DNA of 30,342 nucleotides. Origin: a virus. Of this stretch, positions 3,335 to 27,404 are shown in pieces. The stretch covers positions 1-30,342 of the IMG/VR virus record IMGVR_UViG_3300033981_000090, one strand, 5' to 3'. How positions within the stretch are numbered: position 1 is the stretch's first letter; each line of letters starts with the position of its first letter. The position numbers and the translations under genes are program-made. Below the pieces are notes generated by a model. The model saw nothing but the letters and a program-made list of their open reading frames with translations, was not told where the DNA came from and did no database searches.

Positions 3335-3681
3335 AGGCCTTCGCCTGGGGTCATGTAGACCGTCGAGGCAGCACCACCAGCACTGAAATACGACCCAGCA
3401 GGGAAGCGCAGGATTTCAACTGCGCCAGGAAGCAGAGGGATGCCAGGAGCCGGATTGCCTGACACAGCAGCGGCTGCGTTTGTCTGAGCTGCAGTTGCAG
3501 TCGGTCCAAAACCAAGATGGACCAGGTTAGCTCCTGCATTGACGACACGCATCTGTCCTGCCACATGAGCTGAGAAACGCTCATAAACAGGTGCCTGAAC
3601 GCCAACAGGAGCCAGAGCTGCGGCTGTGATGGCGATGGTCTCGCCTTGCGGGTTGAATGCGATCTGGGAATTGATGGCCAT
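3331..3681 (-). CDS. Conserved structural-type protein, 116 aa
   Basis: A 116-residue beta-rich protein, Ala/Gly/Thr-rich with few charges, beginning MAINSQIAFNPQGETIAIT and ending TVYMTPGEGL. Similar small proteins (start plus AITAAALAP, VVNAG.NLVHLGFG, LLPGAVEILRFPAG) are encoded near the tail and lysis genes of many podoviruses. Their exact role is unknown to me; a virion decoration or fibre-accessory protein is likely. It lies between the fibre genes and the lysis cassette and overlaps the downstream gene by GTGA. Confidence 0.55.
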   Translation of the reverse strand: MAINSQIAFNPQGETIAITAAALAPVGVQAPVYERFSAHVAGQMRVVNAGANLVHLGFGPTATAAQTNAAAAVSGNPAPGIPLLPGAVEILRFPAGSYFSAGGAASTVYMTPGEGL

Positions 3682-3690
3682 GATGACTCC

Positions 3691-4914
3691 TTAGAAAATT
3701 GATGGTTGAACGACTTTGTTCTTTCGACGTGTGTACATATACCGACCCACACCAGCGATTTGGTTTCCAGTGTAGTAGTTGATGCTCGCCAGGTGCCCGT
3801 TGAGATAGTTTGTCCCATCCGATCCAATCCTGGCCTGCGTCACAGTCGGAATTGATGCGCTGGTGTCCGTGACAGGAGTTCCGTTGTTCAGCTTGGCTGC
3901 GCAGTTGTTCGTGTTCCAAATGCCGAACAGGTTGTAGGCAGTGTTTGCAGCAATGGTTCCAGCATCAATCTGTGCTTGTGGAGCGCCGTTGTCGACGATG
4001 TACAGCTCCGGGTTGGTGGTGTTTCCACGCAGCACGATGATCTCGTTTGCAGTGCCATCATCAAACTGAATCAGAGGCCTTGTTCCAGAGACTGTCGATG
4101 GCGTAGCTTGCACCTGGGCACCACCGGCCAATGCTTGCCAAAAGCTGCTGAAGTTCACACCAGTGATGGTGGCCACATCGGCATTGCGTGTCACGAGAGC
4201 AGTCGTTGTCGGGATGTAGCTGGACAAAACCAGCCCTGGCTCAAACTGAGCGCCCCAGCAAACCATAGCGTTCGCAGGGTTGCCAACGTAGGTAGCAGCA
4301 ATACCTCCACTTGCGCCGTTGTTGTTGATGCGGATGGTCGTGTTGGCAAGAACTCCTGCGACACCAACATACAGCCGATACCAGCCATTGCCGTAATTGA
4401 CCGCGCCGAATGTCGTCGCACCTACGTTGACAACAGCACCGTTATTCAAGTCGATGTATGCGCCAACACCAGAAATTCTGATCGACGCATATCGACTTCC
4501 TGCGCTTTTGATGAAGCAACTGAAGGTGTAATCGCCTGCTGCGTTGACCAGCACCTTGTCGAGCCGATGCTGGGCATTGGCCGCAGTCTCGAACAACGAG
4601 TCGGCGTTCTGAGTCCCATCTGGCGAGACCGTGGTGTTTGCAGATGGAGTCAAGTTGATCGCACCCCATCCAGTGACACCGCCATTGGTGAAGTCCTGGC
4701 TGTAGGTGCAGATGTTGTTCGTCTGCCCTTCAACCAACAGGCCTCGCGCAGCCAAAGTGACTGGCGTGTAATCGAAGCGTGGCGTGTCGGCAGCGACAGT
4801 CTCAACCAGCCCTGATGCGTTCACGCGGGTGGCAGTTGCGCCAGCCCTTGTGAACGTGATCAGAGGATCGAGAGACCCGCTGAGGAAGTTCAGCGCCAGA
4901 GCTGGCGTCGTCAT
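3691..4914 (-). CDS. Lectin-like tail fibre or receptor-binding protein
   Basis: A 407-residue protein, mostly beta. The N-terminal part contains ARGLLVEGQTNNICTYSQDF, a signature shared by many phage fibre and appendage proteins that carry carbohydrate-binding jelly-roll domains (residues about 55-230; YTFSCFIKSAG and NGWYRLYVGV are typical). A second concanavalin A/LamG-like domain follows (about 250-400: FDDGTANEIIVLRG, ARIGSDGTNYLNGHLASINYYTG). It starts in an ATGA overlap with the tailspike gene. A role in host recognition is inferred from fold type and position. No P22-type head-binding domain is present, so it may attach to the tailspike or to another appendage. Confidence 0.65.
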   Translation of the reverse strand: MTTPALALNFLSGSLDPLITFTRAGATATRVNASGLVETVAADTPRFDYTPVTLAARGLLVEGQTNNICTYSQDFTNGGVTGWGAINLTPSANTTVSPDGTQNADSLFETAANAQHRLDKVLVNAAGDYTFSCFIKSAGSRYASIRISGVGAYIDLNNGAVVNVGATTFGAVNYGNGWYRLYVGVAGVLANTTIRINNNGASGGIAATYVGNPANAMVCWGAQFEPGLVLSSYIPTTTALVTRNADVATITGVNFSSFWQALAGGAQVQATPSTVSGTRPLIQFDDGTANEIIVLRGNTTNPELYIVDNGAPQAQIDAGTIAANTAYNLFGIWNTNNCAAKLNNGTPVTDTSASIPTVTQARIGSDGTNYLNGHLASINYYTGNQIAGVGRYMYTRRKNKVVQPSIF

Positions 4915-13934: not shown

Positions 13935-15337
13935 CAGTAGAGCAGCCCTTCAATCTGCGCTTCCAGCCGTGCGAAGGCCAGATGCGCATCGCTGTCGCCG
14001 CGGAAGCGCTGGATGCGCCAGTTGCGCATGCTGCCCTGCTGGAACCACGCCAGGCGCTTCTTGGTGTTGCCGATGGTGCCAGCACGCAGTGGCCGATCCT
14101 GGCTCCATGACAGGCCGTCCAGGCTGTAGCTGGTGGTGATGATTGGGTCGACGCCAAGCGCCACGCGGCCGGTCAAGCTGACCAGCTCCAGCTCATGGAA
14201 CAGAGCGCCGTTGCCCTCGTTGTAGGCAATCAGCGTGCCGAACTCCCAGCGCACTTTCTGACCCCAGTGCGTGCCAATGGTGTCCACCAGATAGCCGATG
14301 TTGCTCGACTGCGGATCACCGACAAGCCACTTGTCGTAGGCCCAGACCAGGTTGCGCGCACGGTACTGACTGAACCCGACGACCGTGGTCGTCAGCGTGA
14401 ACCAGACCAGCTCGCCCAGCGCCTCGCTGGCCGCTGCGTCATAGACCAGCGTGCGGTCAGGCAGGTGGACGTAGAGGTGCTGGTGCGCCTTGTCGTTGCG
14501 CGCCTCCAGCTTCACCGTGGCGAGCTGCGCCTCGGTGTACTGCAGCAGAATCTCGTCGATCTCCTGCGTGCTCACCTTGGTGGCAGTGGCGTTGGCGCCC
14601 ATGTAGATGCCTGGCGCTTCGTTGCGGCCGCTGCCCAAAAAAGCCACCTGCTCCATGAAAACGCAGCATCCAAACGTGCCAATGACGCCCTTCTGAACCT
14701 GTGCGCCATCGATGCGTTGGAACGGGAAGAAGTCGCCGCCCACGTTGTCGAACACCTCGATGGTATTGCGGTTCAGTGCATAGACCTCGTTGCGCAGCTT
14801 CAGCAGCGCCACCACCGGGTCAGGATCGACCTCGCTGGAGCCGTACTTCAGCGGGTTGACCTGAGTTGGGTCTGACAGCTCGGTCACCACCAGGCTTGAA
14901 CCATCGGTGGTCATGAAGTAGCCGTCCACCCAGCAAAAATCCAGCACCACACCAAGATCAGGATCAGTCACCTGCGTGAGGACGCCGTTCCAGTAGTACA
15001 GCCTGCCGCCAGACGCAATGGCCAAGCGGTCGAAGCTGTAGTCCATCGTCACCAGCGTGTTGATTGGTCCACCAACCTCGCCAAGCACGGTCACAGCGCC
15101 ATTGCTGGCCACAGTCACGAGCTTGGTGCCCATGACGCGATAGCAGGTGCCGTTCCAGTTGATGCCGCCGCGGTCAATGCCAGGGCCGCTGCCGTTGGCC
15201 ACGATGCCGTCACCTGGCCGCAGGAAGCCGGAGCTGATGCCGCTGTTCTTGGGCACTGGCACCATGTTGACCGGGTAGGACGTGCGGAAATCCGGTCCGT
15301 TGTCGGTGTAGATGCCGTTCAGGATTGGAATCTGCAT
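13934..15337 (-). CDS. P22 gp10-like tail hub / packaged DNA stabilisation protein
   Basis: A 467-residue protein, almost the length of P22 gp10 (about 472). It opens IPILNGIYTDNGPDFRTSYPVNMVPV, a typical start for the family, and continues with propeller-like strand repeats (INWNGTCYRVMGTKLV, DRLAIASGGRLYYWNG, EVYALNRNTIEVFDN). It contains QRIDGAQVQKGVIG and later RWEFGTLIAYNEG. In P22, gp10 binds the portal-gp4 assembly, closes the head and holds the needle and spikes. The gene lies next to the gp4-like and needle-like genes, as expected. Confidence 0.88.
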   Translation of the reverse strand: MQIPILNGIYTDNGPDFRTSYPVNMVPVPKNSGISSGFLRPGDGIVANGSGPGIDRGGINWNGTCYRVMGTKLVTVASNGAVTVLGEVGGPINTLVTMDYSFDRLAIASGGRLYYWNGVLTQVTDPDLGVVLDFCWVDGYFMTTDGSSLVVTELSDPTQVNPLKYGSSEVDPDPVVALLKLRNEVYALNRNTIEVFDNVGGDFFPFQRIDGAQVQKGVIGTFGCCVFMEQVAFLGSGRNEAPGIYMGANATATKVSTQEIDEILLQYTEAQLATVKLEARNDKAHQHLYVHLPDRTLVYDAAASEALGELVWFTLTTTVVGFSQYRARNLVWAYDKWLVGDPQSSNIGYLVDTIGTHWGQKVRWEFGTLIAYNEGNGALFHELELVSLTGRVALGVDPIITTSYSLDGLSWSQDRPLRAGTIGNTKKRLAWFQQGSMRNWRIQRFRGDSDAHLAFARLEAQIEGLLY

Positions 15338-15341
15338 GGCC

Positions 15342-15629
15342 TTACCACTTCACCTTGTCTGCCCAGTAGGCAGCGCTCATCTTTCCCTTGGCGATGTTGC
15401 CGGCATGCCTGGCCTTGAATGACTCGCGCCTTGCCTTGTCTGCTTTGGACTCGCCTTCCTTCTTGGGGCTGCCAGAGACGCCTTGCTGGCCGAACCTGAT
15501 CGTCTTGACCTGGTCGCCAGACTTGGCCACCACGACATGCGACTTGGTCGGATGCCCAGGCGTGCGCTTGGGCTTATTGAAGCCCTCGACGCCAACACGC
15601 TCCAGCCGTGGGTCTTTCTTGGCCGCCAT
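15342..15629 (-). CDS. Conserved basic phage protein, 95 aa
   Basis: A 95-residue, strongly basic protein with a pattern I recognise from many podovirus structural regions: KDPRLERVGVEGFNKPKRTP, then HVVVAKSGDQVKTIRFGQQG, then ESKADKARRESFKARHA and MSAAYWADKVKW. Function is unknown; its charge suggests nucleic-acid contact. ATG 15629 is preferred; a TTG two codons earlier overlaps the upstream stop and is possible. It lies between the gp10-like gene and a conserved structural-type gene. Confidence 0.65.
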   Translation of the reverse strand: MAAKKDPRLERVGVEGFNKPKRTPGHPTKSHVVVAKSGDQVKTIRFGQQGVSGSPKKEGESKADKARRESFKARHAGNIAKGKMSAAYWADKVKW

Positions 15630-15631
15630 GA

Positions 15632-16087
15632 TCAAGCAATCCGATACCAGGAGTTGGTGGCCTGCACGAAGCGCATGCGGAAGAAGTCTTCGGCAGCCAG
15701 CGTGGCTGGAGCACCATAGGCCGCCGCGGCACCGTTCAGCGCCAGCGTGAATGCCGTGATCTGCTGAGTGGTGGTGATCAGCACCTCGGTACCGTCAGGC
15801 GTGCCAGTGTTCAGCGGCAGCGTCACCGTGCCAGTGGCCAGCGTGCCGGCCGGCTGGATCAGCATCCACTGCTGCTGCGCCACAGGCGTGGGCACGGCCA
15901 GGTTGAAGCCGGTGCCAGGCGTGTAGACGTTGGTGGCCAGCGTGGGGCTGGCAAAGGTCTGCTGGAAGTAGGCCAGCAGCGCACTGATCGGCAGACGCCT
16001 TGCATCGCCGTTGTTCGGGCTGTAGATCGGAACCTGGTCACCAGGCGATACCTGGGCCAGCAGGGGGAGTTGGTAGATTTGCGGCAT
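15632..16087 (-). CDS. Conserved structural-type protein, 151 aa
   Basis: A 151-residue protein beginning MPQIYQLPLLAQVSPGDQVP with a clear GAGGA ribosome binding site. The N-terminal part (residues 1-45) looks like an attachment or oligomerisation segment (SNNGDARRLPISALLAYFQ-like, common in phage fibre or decoration proteins). The rest is beta-rich (QQWMLIQPAGTLATGTVTLP). Similar proteins sit between gp4-like and gp10-like genes in other podoviruses. The precise role is unknown. Confidence 0.5.
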   Translation of the reverse strand: MPQIYQLPLLAQVSPGDQVPIYSPNNGDARRLPISALLAYFQQTFASPTLATNVYTPGTGFNLAVPTPVAQQQWMLIQPAGTLATGTVTLPLNTGTPDGTEVLITTTQQITAFTLALNGAAAAYGAPATLAAEDFFRMRFVQATNSWYRIA

Positions 16088-16097
16088 GGTGTGTTCC

Positions 16098-16580
16098 TCA
16101 GTTGTACTCGATGGGGCCGTCCGGTCCTGCAGTGACCGGGTCGACCGGCTGACTCAGGAACGGGTTGTCGTACACGCGCCAGGGCTTGTTGCCGGCACCG
16201 GATGGCATCGTGTTCGGGAATTGCTGCTCCAGCGGAGCTGTGGCGCGCTGCAGCAGGGTGTCGTATCCCTGCTTGGCCGTGGCCTTGGTCTCGTTCATGA
16301 CCTGCTTGCCGTAGCTCGGAGCCAGGCGCACGCCAAGATTGCAGATGATGGTCTCGTAGGCCGAGTCCGGCACGTTGGTCTGCTCGTCGATGCTGCCATC
16401 CTGGGGGCTGGCCGGGATCGGGTAGCCGAGCCGAATGCCCTTGCCATTCCAATCGGCCATCATGGCATCGAGCCTGCGCCTGGCTGTCTCAAGCTGCTCC
16501 GGCTGCAGGTCGAAGACGTAGGACGCAAGGCCGATCTCCTCGAAGGCTGCATAGACGAACTGGCGCTTGCTGTATCCCAT
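16098..16580 (-). CDS. P22 gp4-like tail accessory / head completion factor
   Basis: A 160-residue helical protein (P22 gp4 is 166). Diagnostic features are KRQFVYAAFEEIGLASYVFD at the start, ETARRRLDAMMADWNGKGIRLGY (about residues 31-53), and DSAYETIICNLGVRLAPSYG. In P22, gp4 is the first factor to bind the portal after packaging, forming a ring that gp10 joins. AGGAG precedes the ATG. Position between coat and gp10-like genes agrees. Confidence 0.88.
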   Translation of the reverse strand: MGYSKRQFVYAAFEEIGLASYVFDLQPEQLETARRRLDAMMADWNGKGIRLGYPIPASPQDGSIDEQTNVPDSAYETIICNLGVRLAPSYGKQVMNETKATAKQGYDTLLQRATAPLEQQFPNTMPSGAGNKPWRVYDNPFLSQPVDPVTAGPDGPIEYN

Positions 16581-16581
16581 G

Positions 16582-17067
16582 TCACTCTCCTGATGTCTGC
16601 TGTGCGAGCGCCGTCTCGATCATGCTGGCCAGTTTCTTGTCGGACGTGCGCTTGTTGAATGGTATCGCCAGCTCGGTGGCTTTGGCCTCCAGTTCCTCGC
16701 GTGTCGGTGGTGCGTTGTCCTCGACGACAGGCGCAGCAGGTTCTGGTGCTGGAGCTGGTTCTGGTGCTGGCTCTGGTGCTGGCGCAGGGGCTGGTTTTTT
16801 GGCCGCCTTGACCACCGATGCGCGCCGTTCGACAGGCGGTTTCTGTTTCACAGGCGTGCGCCTGGGGTTCTTGGACTTGCGCCCCATCAGATGGCGCGCT
16901 GCCAGCGGTCCTGCTGCCTCGATGGCCGCCTCCAGCGTCATGTGCCAGCCGGCTGCCAGCTTGGCATCCAGTTGCGCCTGGCCATGCATCGGCATGGCGT
17001 CATAGGAATAGCGTGCGCGCTGGATCGAGCCAGGCGCGCGATAGACGAGGCAGGGGAATGTGGTCAT
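16582..17067 (-). CDS. Hypothetical protein with Pro/Ala/Glu repeats and SAP-like C-terminus
   Basis: A 161-residue protein in three parts. Residues 1-60 form a globular segment (FPCLVYRAPGSIQRARYSYD, GQAQLDAKLAAGWHMTLEAAI). Residues 62-115 form a basic, then Pro/Ala/Glu low-complexity linker with repeated PAPEP units. Residues about 118-156 form a compact helical domain, PPTREELEAKATELAIPFNK plus RTSDKKLASMIETAL, like the HeH/SAP-type helix-extension-helix found at the end of several phage head proteins. The role is unknown; nucleic-acid or head binding is possible. It overlaps the downstream-transcribed neighbour at 17064 by four bases. Confidence 0.55.
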   Translation of the reverse strand: MTTFPCLVYRAPGSIQRARYSYDAMPMHGQAQLDAKLAAGWHMTLEAAIEAAGPLAARHLMGRKSKNPRRTPVKQKPPVERRASVVKAAKKPAPAPAPEPAPEPAPAPEPAAPVVEDNAPPTREELEAKATELAIPFNKRTSDKKLASMIETALAQQTSGE

Positions 17068-17237
17068 TTCTTGGCCTTTGGTTTCTTGGCGGTCTTGGCC
17101 GCGGCCTTGAATGCGGCCTCAGTCGGTGCGCCTCTGGTTCCAGGCTTTCGCATGCGCTCAGGCGTCTTGCCTGCGGCCTTCTGGCGCTCGATGCGCTCGC
17201 GCTTGGCGTGGATGTTGGCGTAGAGGCCGGCTTTCAC
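17064..17237 (-). CDS. Tiny Lys/Arg-rich conserved protein, 57 aa
   Basis: The reading frame is longer, but the natural start is GTG 17237, overlapping the stop of the upstream small gene in a GTGA junction. The 57-residue product begins MKAGLYANIHAKRERIERQ and contains KMRKPG-like RMRKPGTRGAPTEAAFKAAA. This MKAGLYANIHAKR...MRKPG.KGAPT pattern is a conserved small phage protein. The net charge is strongly positive. Function unknown; DNA or capsid-interior binding is a guess. Confidence 0.7.
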   Translation of the reverse strand: MKAGLYANIHAKRERIERQKAAGKTPERMRKPGTRGAPTEAAFKAAAKTAKKPKAKK

Positions 17238-17404
17238 TTCTTGGCCTTCTTCGGTGCTTTGCTGGGCTTTCCTGCGGCCTTGGCAGCCGTGCGCGCAGTG
17301 GACAGCGCCACAGCGACAGCCTGCTTCTGGGGCATGCCCTTCTTCATCTCCTTGGAGATGTTCTTGCTGATGGACTTCTGCGAATAACCCTTGGTCAGTG
17401 GCAT
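17234..17404 (-). CDS. Tiny Lys-rich conserved protein, 56 aa
   Basis: A short gene from ATG 17404, with AAGGAG 6 bases before it, ending at 17234 in a GTGA overlap with the next gene. The 56-residue product begins MPLTKGYSQKSISKNISKEM and contains KKGMPQKQAVAVALSTAR, a motif typical of a widespread small phage protein family, then a tail of Ala/Lys/Pro (KPSKAPKKAKK). It is the first gene after the coat-gene hairpin. Function unknown. Confidence 0.7.
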   Translation of the reverse strand: MPLTKGYSQKSISKNISKEMKKGMPQKQAVAVALSTARTAAKAAGKPSKAPKKAKK

Positions 17405-17421
17405 GTGTGTCTCCTTGGCAA

Positions 17422-17443
17422 TGGGGGGACCGAAGTCCCCCCA
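17422..17443 (-). terminator. Strong UUCG-loop hairpin after the coat gene
   Basis: Directly downstream of the coat stop, a perfect 9-bp stem (TGGGGGGAC and GTCCCCCCA) is closed, on the transcribed strand, by C-TTCG-G, an extra-stable UNCG tetraloop. No U-run follows, so full intrinsic termination is unlikely. Partial termination, or protection of the coat mRNA from 3' nucleases, would both raise coat levels relative to the genes beyond. It lies in the 53-bp gap 17405-17457. Confidence 0.6.
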
Positions 17444-17457
17444 CTCTTGCCGTCAGC

Positions 17458-18750
17458 TTACTGGTTGAACAACAAGATGCCGGACATCTCGGGCTGCTTG
17501 TTCACCACACCGAACAGCGTGTCGAGACGATACTTGATCGTCATGCTGTCGATGTCGTAGAACTTCTGCATCACCACTTCGATGTTGTTGTCGGTGGTAG
17601 CGCGCATCACTGCGGTACCAGCGTCAGACGGGACAGCGTAGCGGCCAGGCAGCAGCTCAAGTGCATCACGCTGCCAGAACACGTTCACTGCAGCAGTGTT
17701 CACGTTCAGGAAGGTGATGGCAGCAGCAGCCGCAGGCGTCACGATCACGTTCTGATACTGGAGTTCAGCATCAGAGCCACCCTGGGCCGAGATGATCGGC
17801 GGGGTGATGACCAGATCGGTACCACCGGCAGGCACGCTCACCACGCGGAAGGTCTTGGGCTGGCCAGTACCTTGCTTGGTGATGTGATGCACGGCCTCGA
17901 CGCCATCGATGGTGAACGCATCGCCAGCCACAATACCAGCCGTCGCGTTGACGGTGATGGTCTGGAAGCGGTTGTCCACGTTCTGGGTTTCGCCAGAGAT
18001 GGCGGTCGAGGTGGCTTGCGGGACGTAGTAGTTGTTCGCCGCGGCCTGGGTGTCGATGGTGACAGGAGCTGCGGGAGCAGCGCCGACCAGACGGTTGGCG
18101 TAGTCGAACTTGAACGTCTCGAAGCCAGCGACCATGCCGACGAACGAGCGCTCGAAGGCGCTGTTCGACTTGTTGCCGTTGAACGAACGAGCTGCGGTAC
18201 CAGTCGCGCCGGTAGCGATGTTGCCAGCCAGGCCGTTGTAGTCGCGGCTGGACAGCGCCAGGTAGCGGTCATAGTTGGCCACGCCCTGCTCGTTCATGAT
18301 GCTGTCGCACAAAGCGACATCATCATAGGTGCCAGCAGGAGCGCCAACGTCCACCACCAGCGAGCCGAGGTTCGCAGCAGCGTTCATGATCGCCAGGTTG
18401 ATGTCCGAAGCCAGCTTCTGCTTGGCAGCCTCGCCCAGACGGCCTTCCTGCAGTGCATCACGCAGGTCAAGCGCAGTCATGGTCCAGGGCACCGTGCGGC
18501 TGAAGCCGATGGTGGCCGGGACAGCCAACTGCGTCATGTCCTGGTAGCCAGGGATGGCCACACCGGGAGTCGAGGAAATCGACTGCGCGATGTAGGGCTG
18601 GGGACGCCAGATGATGTCGTTGGTACGAGCCATCATCGTCTGGTCGGTGTTGTAGATGCTCACGTTGCGCGAGAGCACCAGGGCATCGTGAAAGCCTTCG
18701 AGCAGGTTCTCGAACGCAACACGCTCTTCTTTGGAAAAACTATTCGCCAT
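17458..18750 (-). CDS. Major coat protein, P22 gp5 family
   Basis: A 430-residue protein, the same length as P22 gp5, with an HK97-type fold expected. Recognisable blocks are TNDIIWRPQPYIAQSI, FSRTVPWTMTALDLRDALQE, then ANRLVGAAP near residue 220. An inserted beta-rich region (about residues 225-345: TITVNATAGIVAGDAFTIDG, VHHITKQGTGQPKTFRV) corresponds to the P22 insertion domain, and the end is MTIKYRLDTLFGVVNKQPEM. It builds the procapsid with the scaffold and portal. AGGAG stands 7 bases before the ATG, and a strong hairpin follows the stop, as fits the most abundant virion protein. Confidence 0.92.
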   Translation of the reverse strand: MANSFSKEERVAFENLLEGFHDALVLSRNVSIYNTDQTMMARTNDIIWRPQPYIAQSISSTPGVAIPGYQDMTQLAVPATIGFSRTVPWTMTALDLRDALQEGRLGEAAKQKLASDINLAIMNAAANLGSLVVDVGAPAGTYDDVALCDSIMNEQGVANYDRYLALSSRDYNGLAGNIATGATGTAARSFNGNKSNSAFERSFVGMVAGFETFKFDYANRLVGAAPAAPVTIDTQAAANNYYVPQATSTAISGETQNVDNRFQTITVNATAGIVAGDAFTIDGVEAVHHITKQGTGQPKTFRVVSVPAGGTDLVITPPIISAQGGSDAELQYQNVIVTPAAAAAITFLNVNTAAVNVFWQRDALELLPGRYAVPSDAGTAVMRATTDNNIEVVMQKFYDIDSMTIKYRLDTLFGVVNKQPEMSGILLFNQ

Positions 18751-18771
18751 GATTGGCTCCTATTTCAAAAA

Positions 18772-19686
18772 TCAGTTTCTGGATGCTGCTTGCTTCTGCC
18801 GTTTGTACTGGAGCACCTTGGTGTAGTTTCCAGTCTTCTCAGCTTCGGCACGCAGCCGTTCAAGGGTTGAGTCCACCGTGCCAGATGCTCGACCAGTTCC
18901 CTGGACGATGCGCTCAGGCGCGGGTGCTGCTCTGCGATTTGTGACTTTCAATTCTTTCTCCAGTCTTGCCACCGCAAAAGCAAACTTCACGGGGTCGGTA
19001 ATCTTTGAGAGGTCGGCTGCCTTCTTTGGGTTCTTTCCGAGTGCGTACACCACCAGCGCAGGGTTTTCAGCTCCTTGCAGGATCACGCCTTGCTGGGTGA
19101 CGCTGAAGACCTCCTGGGCAATCGCCTCGGCATCCTCATAGTCTCGGACCTTCAGCTCGGCCTTGGCCTTGCTGTAGCCCTCCAGCTTGGCTTGCCAGGC
19201 CTGATGCTGCTGCTGCTCTGCCATCCTGGCCTGTTCGACCATGAAGTCATGCTGCCGCTTGCGCTCATGCCAAGCATCCAATGCCTGCTCGAATCTCTCG
19301 GCATCGTAGTCGTGGTCCTCCAGCTTCGGTTTCGGTCCCAACTGCACTGGTTTGTTCTCAGGTGCAGAGGTTGCGAGCTTTGCTTCGAGTTCACGAATCC
19401 GGCGCTCTTTTTCCCTGTTGGCCTTGCGTAGCTCTCGAACCCATTCAGGTGCGCGAACTTCCTCTTCGGTGGGTGGCGACTCCTCACCTATGGAGACCAC
19501 AACTTCGTCTGACTCCTCCGCGTGCTCGTCATCGGAACCCACAGCCTGCTGGCCATCAGCGGAATCGTCCTCGCTGACTTCAATCTCAACAGGTTGCTGC
19601 TCGTCATCCAGCACCGCGGCCTCGCCGCCGTTGTCGTTTTCTCCTGCTTCTGCCTTCAAATTCATCGTTGACCCCATCAAACTCAC
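18772..19686 (-). CDS. Scaffolding protein, P22 gp8-like
   Basis: A protein of 297-304 residues (P22 gp8 is 303). It is very acidic in the first third (VEIEVSEDDSADGQQAVG), then highly helical and charged (WVRELRKANREKERRIRELE), and ends in a basic helix-turn-helix (TLERLRAEAEKTGNYTKVLQYKRQKQ), the part that binds coat protein in P22. The domain VFSVTQQGVILQGAENPALV is typical of the family. It guides coat assembly and then leaves the head. GTG 19686 overlaps the upstream stop (GTGA); ATG 19677 and 19665 are alternatives, none with a strong ribosome binding site. Confidence 0.83.
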   Translation of the reverse strand: MSLMGSTMNLKAEAGENDNGGEAAVLDDEQQPVEIEVSEDDSADGQQAVGSDDEHAEESDEVVVSIGEESPPTEEEVRAPEWVRELRKANREKERRIRELEAKLATSAPENKPVQLGPKPKLEDHDYDAERFEQALDAWHERKRQHDFMVEQARMAEQQQHQAWQAKLEGYSKAKAELKVRDYEDAEAIAQEVFSVTQQGVILQGAENPALVVYALGKNPKKAADLSKITDPVKFAFAVARLEKELKVTNRRAAPAPERIVQGTGRASGTVDSTLERLRAEAEKTGNYTKVLQYKRQKQAASRN

Positions 19687-19877
19687 TCAATTTGAACGGC
19701 TGAGTGGTTACCGTTTCCCACATTTTCACTCATTCCGAGCGCTCTGCGCAAGGCCGCATAGACCAGGCGCAATCGCAGCTCGGTCTCAGCCTTGAACTCG
19801 GCTGGCTCCGGCTGCTCTGACTCGATGGCCGAGTGGATGTACTCGACCAGGCGCTCGAACTCGTCTTGTGTGCTCAT
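19683..19877 (-). CDS. Small hypothetical protein between frameshifted gene and scaffold, 64 aa
   Basis: Start ATG 19877 is chosen because it overlaps the upstream stop (ATGA); the frame extends to 19925 but that part lies in the upstream gene. The 64-residue product is acidic and helical (STQDEFERLVEYIHSAIESE, ELRLRLVYAALRRALG) with a polar tail. It overlaps the scaffold start by four bases. No family is recognised. Position suggests a role in head assembly or only a coupling gene. Confidence 0.55.
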   Translation of the reverse strand: MSTQDEFERLVEYIHSAIESEQPEPAEFKAETELRLRLVYAALRRALGMSENVGNGNHSAVQIE

Positions 19878-20711
19878 CGCCCGGTCCTCGTAGATTCCAT
19901 GAAACGCATCAGGCTGTCGACCCATTCCTGGGTGGCTTGCTGCACCGGGTTCGATAGCTGGAACGACCGGATGTCGCCAGCCGGATCAGTGCCGGCAGCG
20001 CGCCTGGCCTGCGTGAACTCGGAAAACAGCAGCTCGCGCGGTATGGGTTGCTCGAAGCCGCCGACATACTGGCCGGCCAGTTGCGTGTTGTAGGTGGTGT
20101 GCGGGGCTGGCGACTCGGTGATGATGCGGCCTGTCGGGTCCATCTTGGCAATCGAGAAACCACCAGCATGGATCGGTGCGTCCATCAGCGACTGTTCGGT
20201 GATTGCCGCGCGTGTGGTCGGAAGGTCCGGGAATCCAGCCGTCTTGAACTGGTCCAGCGTCATGCGGTCGATGAAGGCATGCCGCAGCGCGCCATTGGCG
20301 TTGAGCTGGTCGCGCGCAGTCGGATCGTCGACGCCTTTCCATTCAGGCCTGAACCTGCGCACCTCTTTGTCAAACTCGCGCTTGGCCTTCTTGGTGATCT
20401 TGCCGCCCTTGATCTGCTCCAGCAGCGCATCGGACATCATGGTCGAGAAGTCGCCGCCGACATGACTCATCGGGGTGTAGACCATGTAAACATCGCCGCT
20501 GCCCTTGCCGGCCGCCTCCTGGACGCGCCTGGACAGGCCGGTGATCGGTCCCTTGTCAGACGCCCAGGCCGCACCGAATGGCAGGTGCGTGCGCATGAAG
20601 TCGGGGCCGCCTTCCAGCGCCACCGGAGTCGGCAGGCGCACGCCCTCGATCTCGGTCAGCATGCGGCCGGCTGCCGTGCGGTCACCAGTGGCCGGCAAGA
20701 TGGTTGCACCC
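19874..20711 (-). pseudogene. C-terminal part of frameshifted conserved morphogenesis gene
   Basis: This frame encodes about 279 residues that continue the protein begun at 21146. It picks up at GATILPATGDRTAAGRML and runs through VALEGGPDFMRTHLPFGA, AWASDKGPI, DVYMVYTPMSHVGGDFS to STRTGR. The blocks ATILP.TGDRTAAG and GG.DFMR...WAS are ones I know as continuous in proteins encoded between portal and scaffold in other podoviruses. The frame also stays open upstream to 20986, but that part is low-quality sequence and a shadow of the N-terminal frame. The break is at a GGG run (CCC on the plus strand, 20709-20711). Function unknown. Confidence 0.65.
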
Positions 20712-21146: not shown

Positions 21147-23178
21147 GTCCGGTCACCATGTTGGAGATTGTGCGAGCAGATTCGACTGCCAGGCGCTGGT
21201 CCTCGTTGTCGATGTTGGCCAGCGTCTCGGCCGTCTTGGCTCGTTTGTACTCGGCATCTGCGATGGTGTCCACCGTGTCTGCGCGAGCCTTGGCCGCCTT
21301 GGCAATCGCCTCCTCGGCCGCGGCCTGCAGGAATATCTTGTTCGGGTCTTCGGGCTGGCCTTGCAGCTCGACCATCATCTCTTCCTGCTCCTGCTCGGTG
21401 GGCTTGACCACGCCCATGCGCACGAGCTGCTTGCGGAAGAAGTCGCGCACCTCGCCAATGCCCTCGCCCTCCATGTTCATCATGGCCATTGCCTGCAGCA
21501 CCTGCTTGGTCTGCTGGTCGTCGGTGATGGCCATCATGCCGGTGAGTGCGCGCACGGTCGCCGCGCGCTTGCTGGTGCTGGACGGGCCGACATCGACGTT
21601 CACATCGAACTTGGCACGGCTGAGGTCGTTCTCCATGACCACCTCACCGGTCTCGCTGACCATCGGCCGCATCAGCTCGATCATGCCGACCGACTCGTCG
21701 GCCTCGACGACCTTCATCTTGCGGCCTTCCTCGACGTAGATGTCGCGCGCCATCGAGAGCCAGATTTCGCCGCAGCGCTTCATGCCCTTGGCGAAGTTGC
21801 TCATGTAGATGAAGGTCTGCATGTCCAGACGGGTCTGGATCATCTCGATGGCCTTGCCGGAGATGTTCGAGACCATCTTGTCGGCTTGCTGCGAGCTGCC
21901 CAGGATGTCCTGCATGTCCTGCTCGGTGATCTGCAGCAGGGCTGCCATCGCCGGTGGAATCTGGGGGCTGCGGGTGTAGGCCACTGGGCCGCTGATCTGC
22001 TGGCTGCCGTCCGGTCCGGTGATCGGGTTCACCAGCAGGTATGGGTAGTTGCGCAGGTTGTCGTCTGCCCACATGACCTGGTGGCCAGCCACCTGCTCGG
22101 GCACCAGGATCGGTTTCTCGACGCTGGACAGCGCACTGATCTCGCCCAGCTTGGAGAGCTGCATGTTCTTCAGGCGCTGCGCATCCTTAGCCAGGCGCAC
22201 ATGGCCCATGCAGCGCTCGACGTTGTCGACGAACCAGCGCTTGCCGTAGACCGGCACGATGGGGATTTCCTTGCCTGCGATGTAGCCGGCATCCTCCAGA
22301 ATCTTGCCGCCCGACATGATGTACTTGTGAACGCGCCTAGACTTGATCTTGCGCTGCCGGACCTCCTGGCTGCCGATGGCCGCCAGCGTCTCTTCGAGCG
22401 CCGGATCGGCATCGAAGTCGGCCTGGCGGTAGCGCTCCTCGGTGCCGTCGATGGCGCGGAAGATGCGCACGGTCTCGGTCACGTCCTCGACCTTGTAATA
22501 CTCGGCCACATAGACCACGTCAGGCGTACACCAGTCGAACTCGTACTGGTGGATGATCTTCGGCCAGTCGGTCGGATCGTCGCCCCACTCTTCCTTGTAG
22601 CTGGCGCGGGTCATCGAGGTGACCACGAAGGCAAAGCGCGCATCGGCCTTGTCCTGGCGCTTGGCGTTCAGGTCAAAGAAGACCGAGCTGTCGGCATCGA
22701 AAATCGGTTCGATGCGAATGCGCTGCTTCTCGTTGTCCTCGTCCTCTTCGTCCTCGTAAACCGTGCGCAGCCGCCAGGCACCAAAGCCACCGCCCACCGC
22801 CTCCTCGAAGGCGTTGTCGTAAGCCTCATCGGCCACCGAGTCCTGCTCGTCGGCACGGTACAGGCCATCGCAGGTCTCGGCCAGCTTGTCGTTCTCGCTG
22901 CCGTCCTTGCTGACGTAGTCGACCGTGATGCGGTTGTTGCGGTACTCGTTGATGATGCGGATGACGGCCAGGTGGACCTTGTTCACCTCGAACCTGGGCT
23001 TGTTCTCGTAGACATCCCAGAGTGGGCCTTCCCACTGGCTGCCGGCCAGGCTGTAGAAGCGCCGGTCCTGCAGGCACTGCAAGCGCTCGTCGCGCAGAGC
23101 AGTTTGGATGTCGTTGAATTGATTCAGCGCATCACTGTGGAGATTGTTCAGGTACTGCTCTTTTGACATGCGTGCCAT
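21139..23178 (-). CDS. Portal protein, P22 gp1-like
   Basis: A 679-residue protein (P22 gp1 is about 725). It shows the family pattern: FYSLAGSQWEGPLWDVYENK, KVHLAVIRIINEYRNNRITV, DEAYDNAFEEAVGGGFGAWR, then the wing and stem region (HKYIMSGGKILEDAGYI, PIVPVYGKRWFVDN, YPYLLVNP) and a helical C-terminus rich in Glu, Ala and Lys (residues about 600-670), like the shorter barrel of P22-type portals. Twelve copies form the DNA channel at one capsid vertex and bind terminase, then gp4. ATG 23178 follows AGGGG; an alternative ATG lies three codons later. Confidence 0.92.
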   Translation of the reverse strand: MARMSKEQYLNNLHSDALNQFNDIQTALRDERLQCLQDRRFYSLAGSQWEGPLWDVYENKPRFEVNKVHLAVIRIINEYRNNRITVDYVSKDGSENDKLAETCDGLYRADEQDSVADEAYDNAFEEAVGGGFGAWRLRTVYEDEEDEDNEKQRIRIEPIFDADSSVFFDLNAKRQDKADARFAFVVTSMTRASYKEEWGDDPTDWPKIIHQYEFDWCTPDVVYVAEYYKVEDVTETVRIFRAIDGTEERYRQADFDADPALEETLAAIGSQEVRQRKIKSRRVHKYIMSGGKILEDAGYIAGKEIPIVPVYGKRWFVDNVERCMGHVRLAKDAQRLKNMQLSKLGEISALSSVEKPILVPEQVAGHQVMWADDNLRNYPYLLVNPITGPDGSQQISGPVAYTRSPQIPPAMAALLQITEQDMQDILGSSQQADKMVSNISGKAIEMIQTRLDMQTFIYMSNFAKGMKRCGEIWLSMARDIYVEEGRKMKVVEADESVGMIELMRPMVSETGEVVMENDLSRAKFDVNVDVGPSSTSKRAATVRALTGMMAITDDQQTKQVLQAMAMMNMEGEGIGEVRDFFRKQLVRMGVVKPTEQEQEEMMVELQGQPEDPNKIFLQAAAEEAIAKAAKARADTVDTIADAEYKRAKTAETLANIDNEDQRLAVESARTISNMVTGRG

Positions 23179-23204
23179 ATATCGCCCCTATTTGCAAGTA
23201 TTTT

Positions 23205-24431
23205 CTACCATTTACTGGTCACCGGCAATGGTGTGAAGTCCACCTGCCTGCTGACCACCGCGGCACGCCTGACGCCTTCGCATGCGTAGCGCAGTGCGTC
23301 AATGACGTGGTTTTGCTTGTCCTGCAGCACCGGCAGCACCTTGCCGGTCAGCGGGTCCGTCTTGTAGCTGTAAAACGTCAGCTCGTCGATGGTGTGCGTG
23401 CAGCGTGGATGGACCACGATGTCGTAGGACTTCAGCCACTCGACGCCCTCGACCACGGAGTCCTTGCCCTTGACGGCCGGCATGATCTTCGGGAACCCGT
23501 TCTTGCGCATGTGGCTGATGGTCTCGGGCCTGGAGCTGTCGGCCACCAGTGGCCACTTCTCGGCCTCCGGCACGGTCATGAACAGCTCTGGCGTGTTCAT
23601 GATCTCGCAGCCCACCATGTAGGCCTCGTGATCGATGTACAGCGTGCGGCCGACGATGTGGCAGCGCACCAGGACGGTCGGATCAGTGGCAAAGCCCCAG
23701 TCAGCGCCAAGCCGGTGAATGGCGTCCTTCGGTGCCTCGAACTCCTCGATCTTCCAGTTGCGGAAGACGCGCGCGCTGCTGTTCTGCAGGTAGCCGCCAC
23801 GCCAGACGTGCGCATACTTGTCCGGGTCTCGTGACTTGTCGTACTCCATCTCGGAGCGCAGCACGTCCGGGAACCATGGGTTGTCGTCGAAGTTGACCTC
23901 CAGCACCACCGAGTCCGGTGGTGGCTTGTCGCCACGCAAAAGCTGGTCGACCGGATCGCTGGACTGGCTCGGGTTCCAGGTGAACCACAGCTCGGAGCCT
24001 GGCTTGCGGATGGTCGGCCGCAGCAGGTCCAGACTGCGCTGGGAGAGGCTCTGTGCCTCCTCGCACCAGGCACGATCGTAGCCCTCCAGCGACTTGATCG
24101 AGTCTGCCGTGTGGTTCTGCATGCCCTGGAAGATGATCAGGCCGTCGCCGCGTTTGGACTTGATCACGGCCTCCTGGACCTCGAAGTAAGCGCCAGCGTT
24201 CATGGCCTCGATCTTTAGCTCCAGCAGGCGCTTGACCGACTGCGCCAGGGACTTCTGGACCTCGCGCACGCAGACCGACCGGCTGGTCGGGTCCATGATG
24301 TGGGCCTCGATCAGCATCTCGGCAAAGGTGTGCGACTTGCCGGAGCCGCGGCCGCCGAAGGCTCCCTTGTAGCGCGCAGGCTCCAGCAGCGGCAGCGCCC
24401 ATTGTGGGGTCTCGATGCGCAGGGTCGTCAC
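23205..24431 (-). CDS. Terminase large subunit
   Basis: A 408-residue packaging motor-nuclease of the PBSX/Terminase_3 type. Walker A is GGRGSGKS (residues 26-33), Walker B ends in CEEA (Glu124/Glu125), and the coupling motif is FTWNPS (150-155). The nuclease domain has the expected acids: Asp244 in GADWGF, Asp298 in VADSS and Asp378 in HVIDALRY. The protein hydrolyses ATP to pump DNA through the portal and cuts the concatemer. The GTG start overlaps the small-subunit stop (GTGA). It is shorter than P22 gp2 (499) but normal for this subfamily. Confidence 0.93.
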   Translation of the reverse strand: MTTLRIETPQWALPLLEPARYKGAFGGRGSGKSHTFAEMLIEAHIMDPTSRSVCVREVQKSLAQSVKRLLELKIEAMNAGAYFEVQEAVIKSKRGDGLIIFQGMQNHTADSIKSLEGYDRAWCEEAQSLSQRSLDLLRPTIRKPGSELWFTWNPSQSSDPVDQLLRGDKPPPDSVVLEVNFDDNPWFPDVLRSEMEYDKSRDPDKYAHVWRGGYLQNSSARVFRNWKIEEFEAPKDAIHRLGADWGFATDPTVLVRCHIVGRTLYIDHEAYMVGCEIMNTPELFMTVPEAEKWPLVADSSRPETISHMRKNGFPKIMPAVKGKDSVVEGVEWLKSYDIVVHPRCTHTIDELTFYSYKTDPLTGKVLPVLQDKQNHVIDALRYACEGVRRAAVVSRQVDFTPLPVTSKW

Positions 24432-24883
24432 TTTCCGACCACCACGCGCTCGATCTTCTGGATGGCCAGCGGCCGGTCAGGGTCGCCAGTCAGCTCCAGC
24501 TTGTCGCCGTACTTCTTCGGTGCCAGCTTAGACAGCAGCCACTTGCGGGTGTCGACCTGTAGCTTGTGCTTCTGCACCGCCGCCCAGTCCTTCTTGCCAT
24601 CCGGCTGCAGGCCGACATCGGCATCACTCAGCTCGATCACCTCGTTGGCAATGCGCTCGATCAAGTCCTCGCGCGCGCGCGCGTACTCTGCAGCCAGCTC
24701 TGCGTCCTCATTCAGCCACAGGTTGAACGTGCTCTGCGACACGCCAGCCGCCTCGCATGCCTTGAAGGCGCTCAGACCGCCACGCATGCCCGAGAGCACC
24801 AAGGCGCAGATGTCGGCCTTGTTCTCGTGCTTCCTGACCGGCTTCTTCGCCGCGGCCTTTGCTTTGTGGGATTTTGTGGTCAT
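24428..24883 (-). CDS. Terminase small subunit, Sf6-like
   Basis: A 151-residue protein with a basic start (TKSHKAKAAAKKPVRKHENK), a helix-turn-helix (GMRGGLSAFKACEAAGVSQS, TFNLWLNEDAELAAEYARA; about residues 33-70) and the typical helical hairpin with QKHKLQVDTRKWLLSKLAPK, then KYGDKLELTGD. This matches the Sf6-type terminase small subunit, which forms a ring, recognises the pac site and directs the large subunit. ATGA overlaps join it to both neighbours. The pac site is often inside this gene in such phages; none could be identified by eye. Confidence 0.88.
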   Translation of the reverse strand: MTTKSHKAKAAAKKPVRKHENKADICALVLSGMRGGLSAFKACEAAGVSQSTFNLWLNEDAELAAEYARAREDLIERIANEVIELSDADVGLQPDGKKDWAAVQKHKLQVDTRKWLLSKLAPKKYGDKLELTGDPDRPLAIQKIERVVVGK

Positions 24884-25161
24884 GCTGCATTGTCCTCTTT
24901 TTCCAGCCGGTTGGCCACCAGGGTGGCGTAGCCTGCGATGTCGACCCAGTTGTCGGCGTAGTTCGGATCGCCGTTCAGGATGCGCGCGATCTTGTGCTGG
25001 ATCATCTCCAGGGCTTCACGCTGGTCGGCCTGGAGACCATCCCAGCCGCTGCGCTCGTGCATGGCAGCCTTGAGGTCTTGGCTGATCCTGGCATGTCCCT
25101 GGAAGCTGCCATACCGACCTTCACGGCCGGCCAGCATCTCGTTCACGTTGGTCTGTGTCAT
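24880..25161 (-). CDS. DUF6378-like conserved phage protein
   Basis: A 93-residue protein with the conserved core RYGSFQGHARISQDLKAAMH, then LQADQREALEMIQHKIARIL and NGDPNYADNWVDIAGYATLV. This is the DUF6378 pattern common in phages, often near terminase or nucleotide-metabolism genes. Regular Glu, His and Asp in two helices (ALEMIQHKIARILNGD, DNWVDIAGY) recall nucleotide pyrophosphohydrolase-type helical folds, but that link is only suggestive. It overlaps the terminase small subunit by ATGA. No strong ribosome binding site is seen. Confidence 0.75.
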   Translation of the reverse strand: MTQTNVNEMLAGREGRYGSFQGHARISQDLKAAMHERSGWDGLQADQREALEMIQHKIARILNGDPNYADNWVDIAGYATLVANRLEKEDNAA

Positions 25162-25162
25162 G

Positions 25163-25387
25163 TTAGTGCCTGCTTACTTTTCTGTGGATAACTTTTCTCT
25201 GCGTTTCAACCAGCCTGCGGCATGGAAACGCGCCGCGTCGGAAGGGAACTGGGAACACACCTAAAGGTGTGTGTTCCGTTCCGTTCCCTTTTTCCGCCGT
25301 TTTGCCCAGGGAATGGAATTCCGTTTTTTTCCGTTCCGTTACCTTGTTCCCTTCCTGGACCTGTTGATAAGTCTGTGGATAACTCAT
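25163..25387 (-). CDS. Doubtful ORF spanning the origin-like gap, 74 aa
   Basis: An ORF fills the gap between the DUF6378-like gene and the primase-helicase gene. ATG 25387 lies one base after the primase stop and has GGAG 7 bases before it, and the stop falls just before ATG 25161. The translation (MSYPQTYQQVQEGNKVTERK at the start, RRLVETQRKVIHRKVSRH at the end) has no recognisable domain. Parts of it are simply the reading of DnaA boxes and the palindrome. It could be a real small basic protein, but the same DNA looks like a replication or control region. Confidence 0.3.
   Translation of the reverse strand: MSYPQTYQQVQEGNKVTERKKTEFHSLGKTAEKGNGTEHTPLGVFPVPFRRGAFPCRRLVETQRKVIHRKVSRH
25183..25382. 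other. Candidate replication origin or control region
   Basis: This lower-GC stretch holds two perfect DnaA boxes (TGTGGATAA at 25183-25191 and 25374-25382) and a one-mismatch box (TGTTGATAA, 25362-25370) in tandem with the second, 12 bp apart. Six CCGTT units lie at 25276, 25281, 25297, 25321, 25331 and 25336, with T-runs between them. It sits directly downstream of the primase-helicase gene. Box clusters plus short iterated units next to a replication gene are typical of origins; activity is inferred. Confidence 0.45.
25252..25277. repeat. Palindrome in the origin-like gap
   Basis: ACACACCT (25255-25262) and AGGTGTGT (25265-25272) form a perfect 8-bp inverted repeat with an AA centre. With a two-base bulge the arms extend to GGAA and TTCC. 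It may be a protein-binding site or, in RNA, a hairpin. No T-run directly follows on either strand, so it is not a good intrinsic terminator. Confidence 0.5.
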
Positions 25388-25388
25388 C

Positions 25389-27404
25389 TCAGCGCTCCGA
25401 CTTTCGGATCAGCATGGAGCTGGCGTGCGCATCGTTGACCACCAGCCAGCCGTGCTCGAAGGCCTCGATGATCTCGGCCACCAGCAGGTCTGCAATGGGT
25501 TTTCCGGTGGCGCTTGGCTTGATGTAGACCTTGGCCGAGGCCTCGCTCACGTCCATTTTCTGGACCAGGTAGTCGACCATTGCCGACCTGCTGAGGTAGG
25601 GTAAACCATTACGCTCCTCAGCACCGGACGCCCACCAGGCGTTCTCGAAGGTCTTGCGATGGCTGTCGATCTTGCTGTCCTTCCTGGCCACTGTCGGAGC
25701 TTGGGCCTGGACGATCACCGCGGAGGTGACCGGCTGGTTGTCCTCGTCATACCAGCCTGGGATGGTGACCTGCTGCAGCTCAACGTGGACGGTCTGGGCC
25801 AGCTCGGCATCCTTGGACTTGCGCTGCACGATCTGCATGGGCACGCCATCCTTGCCTGGCACGATGCTGATCTCGATGTCCAGCGCGCCGCGCCAGGCGC
25901 TGGAGCCGCGCGCTCGGTGCTGGGCCTCTTCGGCCACGCCAGTGTGGTGAACCAAGATCACGCTGCAGTTGAACTCGTTCATCAGGCTGTTGCAGGCGTC
26001 CAGCATGGTCTTGGCGTCCTGGGCACTGTTCTCGTCGCCGGCCAAGAATCGGTGCAGGGTGTCGACCACGATGATGGCCGGGTTCTCCGGCAGGCCTCGC
26101 ACCTGCTCAACCACCTGCAGGTAGCCGGCCGGGGTGTTGAGGTCGCAGCCGTCCTTGGACAGCCACATGGCCAGGGAGCCTGCCTGGTGGTGGTGCTTCC
26201 AGGCTGCCACGCGACCACGCAGGCCGTGGTGGCCTTCGCCGGCCAGGTAGACCACATTGCCTGGCCGCACCTTCTGGCCGCACCACTCAGCCATGCCGCT
26301 GGCCATGCGCAGGCACCAGTCGAGCACCACAAAGGTCTTGCCGCCGCCAGATGGGCCGTGGACCATGATCAGCGCCTGGCTCTGCAGCCAGCGCTTGACC
26401 AGCCAGGAGATCGGGGCCGGCTGGGCCGAGAAGTCGTCGGCCGGGATCAGCCAGTTGCTTTTTGGCAGCAGCAGACTGGCCAAGTCATGCCCTGCCTGTG
26501 CATAATCGTTTGCGTCTCCCTCGATTGGCGGCATGACCATCCTCGCTCCAAATTTGGCCGAGGCCTGTTCCGCGTATCGCTGTCCCACCCCAGACTTGTC
26601 GTTGTCGGCCACGATCACGATGTCCTGTGTCGCGCCGTACATTTCGCGCAAGCTGCCAGTCACCGGCACCAAATTGCTGGCGCTGTAGGCCACCACCACC
26701 GGCCTGCTGGTGGTCTCGTGAATGGTCGCCGCGGTTGCGAACCCTTCTGCCACAAACAGCGTGCCAGGCTCGTCCATCGTGCCCACCATCCAGAACTTGC
26801 CGCCTGTCTGGCCGCCTGGGTGGTATAGCTTGCCGCCATCGTGGCTGATGTACTGCAGACTGGAGAGTGTGCCGTCCTGATCGTACAGAGGAACCACCAG
26901 CCTGCCATCGCCTGTGATGCGCGCGCCATGCGTCTTGATGCCCTTGCGCGCCAGGTAAGGGTGATCTGGGTGTGCCGCGGAGGCCGATGACCAAATCTTC
27001 TCGACCGTGTCGGCAGCCACCTGGTGCTGGCGCTCCAGCTCGGCATCGCGCAGCACCTTGGCCTCGGCCACTCGCCTGGCGTGTGCCATCTCCTCACTCG
27101 ATGTGAGCTTGCGCCCAATGTCTGCGCGCCAGGTCACCTCGACGCCAGCTCTCCAGCAGCCGAAGCGGCCGGCCGGAACGCCATCACCGAAAACCAGATA
27201 CCAGCCAGGCTTGTCGCCGCCCTTGCCGCCTGTGCCCTTGGTGCCGGACCTGAACCTGTGAATCTTGCCGTCCAGGATCACCTGCTCTGGTGGCTCCAGG
27301 CCGGCCGACTTGATGGCGTCGATCAGTTGCTCTTCTGGTGGTGCAACTCTTTTCTCTGGTGGTGGCGACCAGGGGCCGCCCAGGACTTTGGAGAGATCAG
27401 CCAT
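25389..27404 (-). CDS. Toprim primase-helicase (RepA/AAA_25-type ATPase)
   Basis: A 671-residue replication protein with two parts. The N-terminal primase part has GWYLVFGDGVPAGRFGCWR (residues 67-85), GRLVVPLYDQDGTLSSLQYI (168-186) and a Toprim domain: FVAEGFATAATIHE with Glu220, and IVIVADNDKSG with Asp267 and Asp269. The C-terminal RecA-like helicase part has Walker A HGPSGGGKTF (349-358), Walker B IIVVDTLHR with Asp448, and ILVHHTG (483-489). It probably makes primers and unwinds DNA at the fork. Its start overlaps the Cro-like gene by eight bases, so the repressor probably also controls replication. A canonical CxxC zinc finger is absent. Confidence 0.85.
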   Translation of the reverse strand: MADLSKVLGGPWSPPPEKRVAPPEEQLIDAIKSAGLEPPEQVILDGKIHRFRSGTKGTGGKGGDKPGWYLVFGDGVPAGRFGCWRAGVEVTWRADIGRKLTSSEEMAHARRVAEAKVLRDAELERQHQVAADTVEKIWSSASAAHPDHPYLARKGIKTHGARITGDGRLVVPLYDQDGTLSSLQYISHDGGKLYHPGGQTGGKFWMVGTMDEPGTLFVAEGFATAATIHETTSRPVVVAYSASNLVPVTGSLREMYGATQDIVIVADNDKSGVGQRYAEQASAKFGARMVMPPIEGDANDYAQAGHDLASLLLPKSNWLIPADDFSAQPAPISWLVKRWLQSQALIMVHGPSGGGKTFVVLDWCLRMASGMAEWCGQKVRPGNVVYLAGEGHHGLRGRVAAWKHHHQAGSLAMWLSKDGCDLNTPAGYLQVVEQVRGLPENPAIIVVDTLHRFLAGDENSAQDAKTMLDACNSLMNEFNCSVILVHHTGVAEEAQHRARGSSAWRGALDIEISIVPGKDGVPMQIVQRKSKDAELAQTVHVELQQVTIPGWYDEDNQPVTSAVIVQAQAPTVARKDSKIDSHRKTFENAWWASGAEERNGLPYLSRSAMVDYLVQKMDVSEASAKVYIKPSATGKPIADLLVAEIIEAFEHGWLVVNDAHASSMLIRKSER

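Follow-up and report, generated by a model that had tools for sequence, protein, structure and literature searches.

A short gap behind a phage primase-helicase gene raises the question of whether it is a replication origin and, if so, which protein recognizes it. The window, meaning the whole 30,342-bp stretch of DNA analyzed here, is a virus record that may be a fragment. It is a phage with P22-like portal and terminase genes. On the minus strand, the primase-helicase gene is followed by the gap of 227 bp (25162-25388), the DUF6378 gene, and the terminase genes. The GC content is 50% in the gap and 61% in the window.

A preliminary description of this DNA depicted the gap at the end of the primase-helicase gene as packed with DnaA boxes, repeats, and an inverted repeat, and this picture is real. 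It also suggested an origin that combines host DnaA with a phage protein, which is the best-supported reading after the present analysis. The phage protein can now be named as the adjoining primase-helicase, with its C-terminal winged helix, because the word of the repeated units (iterons) tracks residue 626 in this predicted winged helix. With a probability of roughly 80%, the gap is a phage replication origin bound by the adjoining primase-helicase via the winged helix, with the help of DnaA in the clade of the window. The observed basis is a conserved module, a coupling between iteron word and residue far beyond linkage, DnaA boxes fixed in the clade, and covariation in the hairpin.

Elements of the gap

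Read 5′ to 3′ on the minus strand, the gap begins with TTATCCACA and TTATCAACA 12 bp apart, the GGAAC and GGTAAC words, and CGG-A7-CGG. It continues with the GGGCAAAACGGCGG spacer, three direct GGAAC, the hairpin GGAACACACACC-TTTA-GGTGTGTTCC, and inverted GGAAC, and ends with a GC-rich block and the last TTATCCACA shortly 5′ of the next gene.

25374..25382, minus strand: DnaA box 1, TTATCCACA, perfect; position conserved among relatives
25362..25370, minus strand: DnaA box 2, TTATCAACA, one mismatch; most clade relatives have TTATCCACA
25333..25350, minus strand: left iterons, GGAAC (25346-25350), GGTAAC of the other specificity class (25338-25343), and GGAAC (25333-25337)
25321..25333, minus strand: CGG-A7-CGG tract; A7-CG core invariant in 45 aligned modules
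25294..25307, minus strand: GGGCAAAACGGCGG spacer, conserved in part in the module alignment
25273..25287, minus strand: three adjoining direct GGAAC iterons
25252..25277, minus strand: hairpin GGAACACACACC-TTTA-GGTGTGTTCC; stem letters covary between loci
25245..25256, plus strand: two inverted GGAAC iterons (25245-25249 and 25252-25256)
25230..25239, minus strand: GACGCGGCGC, a GATGCGGCG-like segment 3′ of the hairpin, largely conserved in the module alignment
25183..25191, minus strand: DnaA box 3, TTATCCACA, perfect; offset of 186-201 from the stop of the primase gene among clade relatives
25163..25387, minus strand: 74-codon ORF, probably no gene (no Pfam or PHROG match; frame not conserved)

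The two perfect DnaA boxes (boxes 1 and 3) and the near-perfect one (box 2) noticed earlier were confirmed at these positions, and the two perfect boxes are the only ones in the 30,342 bp. Boxes with at most one mismatch number 6 in the whole window against 2.44 expected from shuffles, and 4 of 100 shuffles reach 6. The window-wide number is mildly high; the telling point is that 3 of the 6 are clustered in 227 bp.

The iteron array of the window includes seven GGAAC and one GGTAAC. The six CCGTT units described previously are present at 25276-25340, but comparison with relatives shows that the repeat unit is GGAAC and that CCGTT is the same array out of register. The GGTAAC at 25338-25343 inside a GGAAC array, observed in the window and in many relatives, looks like an incomplete array conversion. 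Likewise, the reported 18-bp palindrome exists as an inverted repeat around a TAAA center, but it is better described as the hairpin at 25252-25277, whose arms end in GGAAC. This hairpin is nested in an imperfect inverted repeat of greater length (25240-25287), which is 78% complementary, and the single-stranded DNA fold of 25230-25350 is better than 200 of 200 shuffles (z -3.24).

Conservation of the module in related loci

The clade was sampled as the best 80 of 260 IMG/VR relatives of the primase plus the window (81 loci). An array was found 3′ of the primase gene in 78 of them; the sequence of L068 and L074 stops right at the gene end or about 100 bases later, and L069 has other sequence there. 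Based on the iteron word, the clade is divided into 39 GGAAC-type, 39 GTAAC-type, and 3 untyped loci, and minority words of the other class persist in some arrays. In the 45 aligned clade modules, many positions of the iterons and of the hairpin apex are invariant, as is the A7-CG core.

Further scans with the primases of Salicola phage CGphi29, phage 1N2-2, Alteromonas phage XX1924, and MW202867 resulted in 331 genes with sequence behind them, 76 of which are followed by no GG-word with four copies. The counts leave out duplicates of the same protein or module, contigs that break off within either the gene or the module, and loci whose word could not be called with confidence. Of 324 loci examined, 213 have an iteron array 3′ of the primase-helicase gene; these include five of the six public phage records. 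No array was found in the sixth record, MW202475, whose primase is 44% identical with another C-terminus. The words across lineages are GGGAAC, GGTAAC, GGGACA, GGTACA, GGTACG, GGTGCG, GGGTCA, GGTACC, GGTATC, GGTTCA, and GGTACT, and nearly all copies in one array change together. This site is where the word is densest (per 250 bp) in the window and in five public phage records, with counts of 11 vs 1 in 1N2-2, 6 vs 2 in CGphi29, 12 vs 2 in XX1924, 13 vs 1 in PB15, 8 vs 1 in MW202867, and 7 vs 4 in the window.

Of the 213 loci that have a listed word, 201 carry a hairpin of at least 7 pairs, as do 51 of the 111 that lack such a word; the apex of the hairpin is CTTTAG or CTATAG in 154 of 164. Among 59 distinct pairs of arms, the fraction of paired positions is 0.756, compared with 0.343 in shuffled pairs (maximum 0.427), a figure with a mild bias from picking the best-pairing apex per locus; compensating changes are seen in the stem.

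One locus, L077, carries tandem modules behind one primase (3594-3940), the first with GGTAAC words and decayed DnaA boxes, the second with GGGACA words. It may represent an origin exchange in progress or an origin of dual specificity.

Among the 63 unique clade modules, 59 have at least two perfect DnaA boxes, compared with an expectation of 0.0015 for each module after shuffling. The boxes are on the same strand at offsets of 7-10, 19-22, and 186-201, so the loss of the boxes among relatives, which the preliminary description had named as a refutation of the origin, is not observed inside the clade. The four modules without two perfect boxes (L059, L066, L070, and L077) constitute one supported group in the tree. 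As in DnaA-assisted origins, the boxes have a fixed place and orientation in the clade, and they are absent from several other word classes: GGTACA (0/21 modules), GGTACT (0/6), and GGTACG (0/8), while 23 of 47 GGGACA modules have one box. Host DnaA is likely to assist the origin in this clade, because the boxes are strictly conserved there, and it is no general requirement, because several word classes have no box. In L013, L024, L026, and L030, a second short inverted repeat, AAACCCTTTAGAG...CAAAGGGTTT, is found about 180-240 bases past the primase stop, where it adjoins a DnaA-box-like site 5′ of a different downstream gene.

The strict conservation of the boxes in place and strand would also fit a DnaA-titration or DnaA-regulated control site, which sequesters DnaA or regulates the downstream late operon while the iterons serve something else. 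Three boxes are few for titration, however, and the array and usually the hairpin persist in the box-less classes. Such a site leaves the iterons unexplained, whereas their word tracks the primase, as described below. This explanation is considered quite unlikely.

The gap lies inside a co-oriented operon and contains a strong hairpin, as would be expected of an operator or RNA hairpin that is bound by the primase-helicase and controls downstream transcription or translation without being an origin. The scan of 25100-25450 detected no promoter-like or terminator-like match, and no Rfam family reached the gathering score in the window at 24700-25900. From locus to locus, the downstream ORF starts at different places, but the module keeps its position after the primase, and DnaA boxes are present. 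A purely regulatory site is therefore unlikely. A terminase packaging (pac/cos) site is scarcely credible: about 280 bp separate the gap from the start of the small terminase gene in the window, yet the distance between module and small terminase gene is about 5-6 kb in XX1924 and PB15, where the module still adjoins the primase. The word, too, tracks the primase.

The 74-codon ORF proposed previously as a competing reading does exist across the gap, but it is not conserved across the clade. It fills the space between the two neighbor genes except for a single base at each end, and 27 of the 31 unique modules of the GGAAC type have an open ORF of at least 60 codons; these are the points that favor a small protein gene. 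On the other hand, such an ORF is open in 0 of 32 GTAAC-type modules, no forward frame is open in 41 of the 63 unique modules, the ends vary between 62 and 74 codons, and indels shift the frame. No Pfam or PHROG match was found for the ORF at E 0.001. The pattern is explained without a gene because GGTAAC contains TAA whereas GGAAC has no stop. The ORF is probably a by-product of the iteron word, and a small protein gene is highly improbable.

The GC skew, a check proposed in the preliminary description, was calculated for the window and five phage records; it is weak or confounded with gene strand, and it neither supports nor refutes an origin at the gap. In the window it is weak with a maximum near 18.7 kb. 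The minimum is 2-2.7 kb from the module in CGphi29, XX1924, and PB15, where it is confounded with gene strand because it lies near a divergent promoter. It is far from the module in MW202867, and in 1N2-2 it is at 531, with the module at the opposite end of the linear record.

Window positions 21287-25152, in the terminase/portal region, are about 77% identical in DNA to MW202867.1 positions 14983-20052 (two aligned pieces, 17% of the query). The primases of the two are 39.5% identical over 56% of the length, and the origin words differ. Because the terminase/portal DNA is similar while the primase and the origin word diverge, the replication and structural modules seem to have been reshuffled. 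A pattern scan of 84,980 species genomes, which finds close relatives only, revealed a single relative of the primase, on a 4.1-kb contig of an Opitutae MAG that is itself possibly viral. This scarcity suggests that host chromosomes rarely harbor phages of this group. In the plasmid search, 4,291 records matched in part, and none of the matches covered 80%.

Coupling of the iteron word with residue 626

The features of the putative initiator are as follows.

25389..27404, minus strand: primase-helicase gene, proposed initiator with Toprim, RSF1010-RepA-like helicase, and C-terminal winged helix (Pfam Toprim_3 and AAA_25; AF2 model)
25392..25697, minus strand: C-terminal domain, residues 570-671, predicted winged helix and probable iteron reader (AF2 pLDDT 93.0; fold matches)
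25527..25529, minus strand: codon 626 (V), which switches with the iteron word (V in 34/34 GGAAC-type and Q in 34/34 GTAAC-type unique proteins)
25506..25511, minus strand: codons 632-633, the residues that covary best after 626, with mutual information of 0.93 bit at 633 and 0.78 bit at 632 (of 1.00)

The protein is 671 residues long, and its domains place primase and helicase in one phage protein, both activities being predicted. The top fold matches of the AF2 model of the whole protein are RSF1010 RepA (1olo, Z 21.4, rmsd 2.5, 224 aligned residues), in a search that mainly probed the helicase part, and the sequence also matches RSF1010 RepA (1g8y) with the E-value 3.1e-6. Both sequence and fold agree with an RSF1010 RepA-like RecA-fold helicase, with a predicted hexamer state.

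The last 102 residues, modeled on their own with AlphaFold, were predicted as a compact domain, which is also observed in the whole-protein model. It consists of helices and a short wing-like sheet, with residue 626 in a short helix and residues 632-633 in the loop after it. Its fold matches include many winged-helix proteins (SmtB/CadC type, linker histone, CRP type, and a retron effector domain) with the best Z of 6.9, as well as other proteins, all below Z 8. Because the matches are many and the best is only at this level, the winged-helix class is likely while no specific relative can be named. Among the listed matches, none was conspicuous as a dedicated initiator of a phage or plasmid, which excludes nothing.

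Among 68 unique proteins (34 + 34), the mutual information between residue 626 and the word is 1.00 bit at all three codon positions, while the best of 312 silent sites reaches 0.31 bit and the best in codons 600-671 reaches 0.21. Linkage to the adjoining array does not explain the coupling, because silent sites do not track the word. On a tree made from residues 1-575, which omits the C-terminal domain, the word has switched at least 12 times, with 9 switches forced by supported branches, and 9 of 9 independent tree pairs show the same direction (p 0.0039). The window and L006 are 91-100% identical in every 67-residue block, yet their words differ; L006, like L036, has Q626 and GGTAAC.

The analysis was extended to 136 unique pairs of domain and word with four words, a set that is partly clade-linked and leaves out 7 rarer-word pairs and all GGGTCA, GGTACG, GGTGCG, and GGTATC loci. 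For base 3, no other of the 97 columns does as well here as residue 626 (0.91 bit), while within ACA-ending words residue 632 exceeds it (0.91 vs 0.83 bit). A rule was fixed before three new scans: V, I, or T at 626 corresponds to G at base 3, and Q, N, M, or L corresponds to T. It was correct for 155 of 161 scorable loci in its first set (255 unique loci examined) and for 15 of 17 scorable held-out loci (39 examined); the match from a cellular genome (L364) is not among the scorable loci. Both held-out misses and four of the six in the first set belong to the GGGTCA subfamily with N626, in which the word register is ambiguous, and the others are L158 and L282. N626 should be counted as uninformative, because the GGGTCA conflict was already visible when the rule was set. 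K626 occurs with both bases. It appears from these sequences that residue 626 helps to read base 3 of GG(G/T)NNN, with V, I, or T mainly for G, Q, M, or L mainly for T, and N for either.

The presence of an array also varies with the C-terminus. None of the 57 loci with a different C-terminus has a 6-mer in at least five copies behind the gene. Such a repeat follows the gene in 143 of the 168 loci that carry the helix motif and in 71 of the remaining 90, these classes having been chosen after a first look at the sequences. An example of the different C-terminus is ...RRNLIDGK..., as in L095, L099, and L250. The primase-helicase most likely binds the origin itself, because the word tracks residue 626 and loci with the different C-terminus lack the array. 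Its C-terminal domain probably reads the iterons of its own origin, as judged from sequence and model. As in iteron-type origins, there is an array of short repeats that is cognate to its own initiator by covariation.

Another phage protein could read the iterons instead, with residue 626 hitchhiking; one candidate is a Cro-like helix-turn-helix protein encoded next door, just before the primase. In two attempts, limited by the flanks, only 14 and 13 of the 78 typed loci yielded a Cro homologue, of which 9 and 7 were unique, whereas all loci were found via the primase. Residue 626 also outperforms every silent and neighboring site, and a reader other than the primase-helicase is very unlikely.

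Proposed mechanism and comparison with known systems

In the proposed mechanism, the winged-helix domain of the primase-helicase would bind the GGAAC iterons, in line with the covariation, and the protein would thereby be loaded as a helicase beside the A7 tract and the hairpin. The Toprim domain suggests that it may also prime synthesis at the gap. In the clade, host DnaA, bound to the tandem boxes and, on the opposite side, to the single box, may help to bend or open the DNA, or license firing. A more specific idea, which has slightly less than an even chance, is a self-addressed modular origin whose specificity comes largely from residue 626 and the adjoining loop 632-633. Its address would have changed often through coupled changes of the recognition residue and nearly all iteron copies, possibly as a means of avoiding cross-initiation by co-infecting phages and satellites or their parasitism of the origin, and the tandem modules of L077 would be a possible intermediate.

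How initiators and origins change their specificity jointly is an old question, and few natural series for its study are known to us. The loci described here provide about 200 paired initiator domains and origins, with 9 to 12 switches within one close clade, and the predicted relation of one residue to one base is now directly testable. Likely origins can also be located easily by this means in a large group of phages that is represented mainly by metagenome contigs. The titles and abstracts among the listed literature matches contained no description of such an origin or of a one-residue iteron switch.

In RSF1010, the iterons are bound by a separate protein, RepC, and RepA is not known to have primase or winged-helix domains. 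The helicase domain of the window protein is closest to RSF1010 RepA, but unlike the RepA/RepC/oriV system, it is combined with all the other domains in one chain. Iteron plasmid origins such as RK2 oriV have DnaA boxes beside the iterons, and the position and orientation of these boxes matter (PMC4980987). Unlike in RK2-type origins, the initiator here is the primase-helicase and not a Rep/TrfA-type protein, and the words are about 6 bp with inverted copies. For the PrimQH and PolpTN2 primase families, a C-terminal WH domain was proposed, speculatively, to recognize the origin (PMC5862659). These are archaeo-eukaryotic primases, whereas the window primase is of the Toprim type and the reader role of its domain is backed by covariation.

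The proposed working plan resembles that of the alpha protein of satellite phage P4 (P4 alpha), in which one chain serves for origin recognition, helicase, and primase. P4 alpha has a C-terminal origin-binding domain and iterons, and it combines another primase type with an SF3 helicase. The union of primase, helicase, and origin recognition in this one phage protein is stated in the title of Ziegelin 1993, as cited in PMC8628076. The window protein, with its Toprim primase and RSF1010-RepA-like RecA-fold helicase, appears to differ from P4 alpha in its domain types, and it is not placed in the P4-alpha family proper, which would imply homology and an SF3 helicase. The window module also differs from P4 in its DnaA boxes and in its iteron words. 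Thus, a P4-alpha-like working plan was already known, and the distinctive part of the present system, as the sequences suggest, is the repeated natural switch of specificity.
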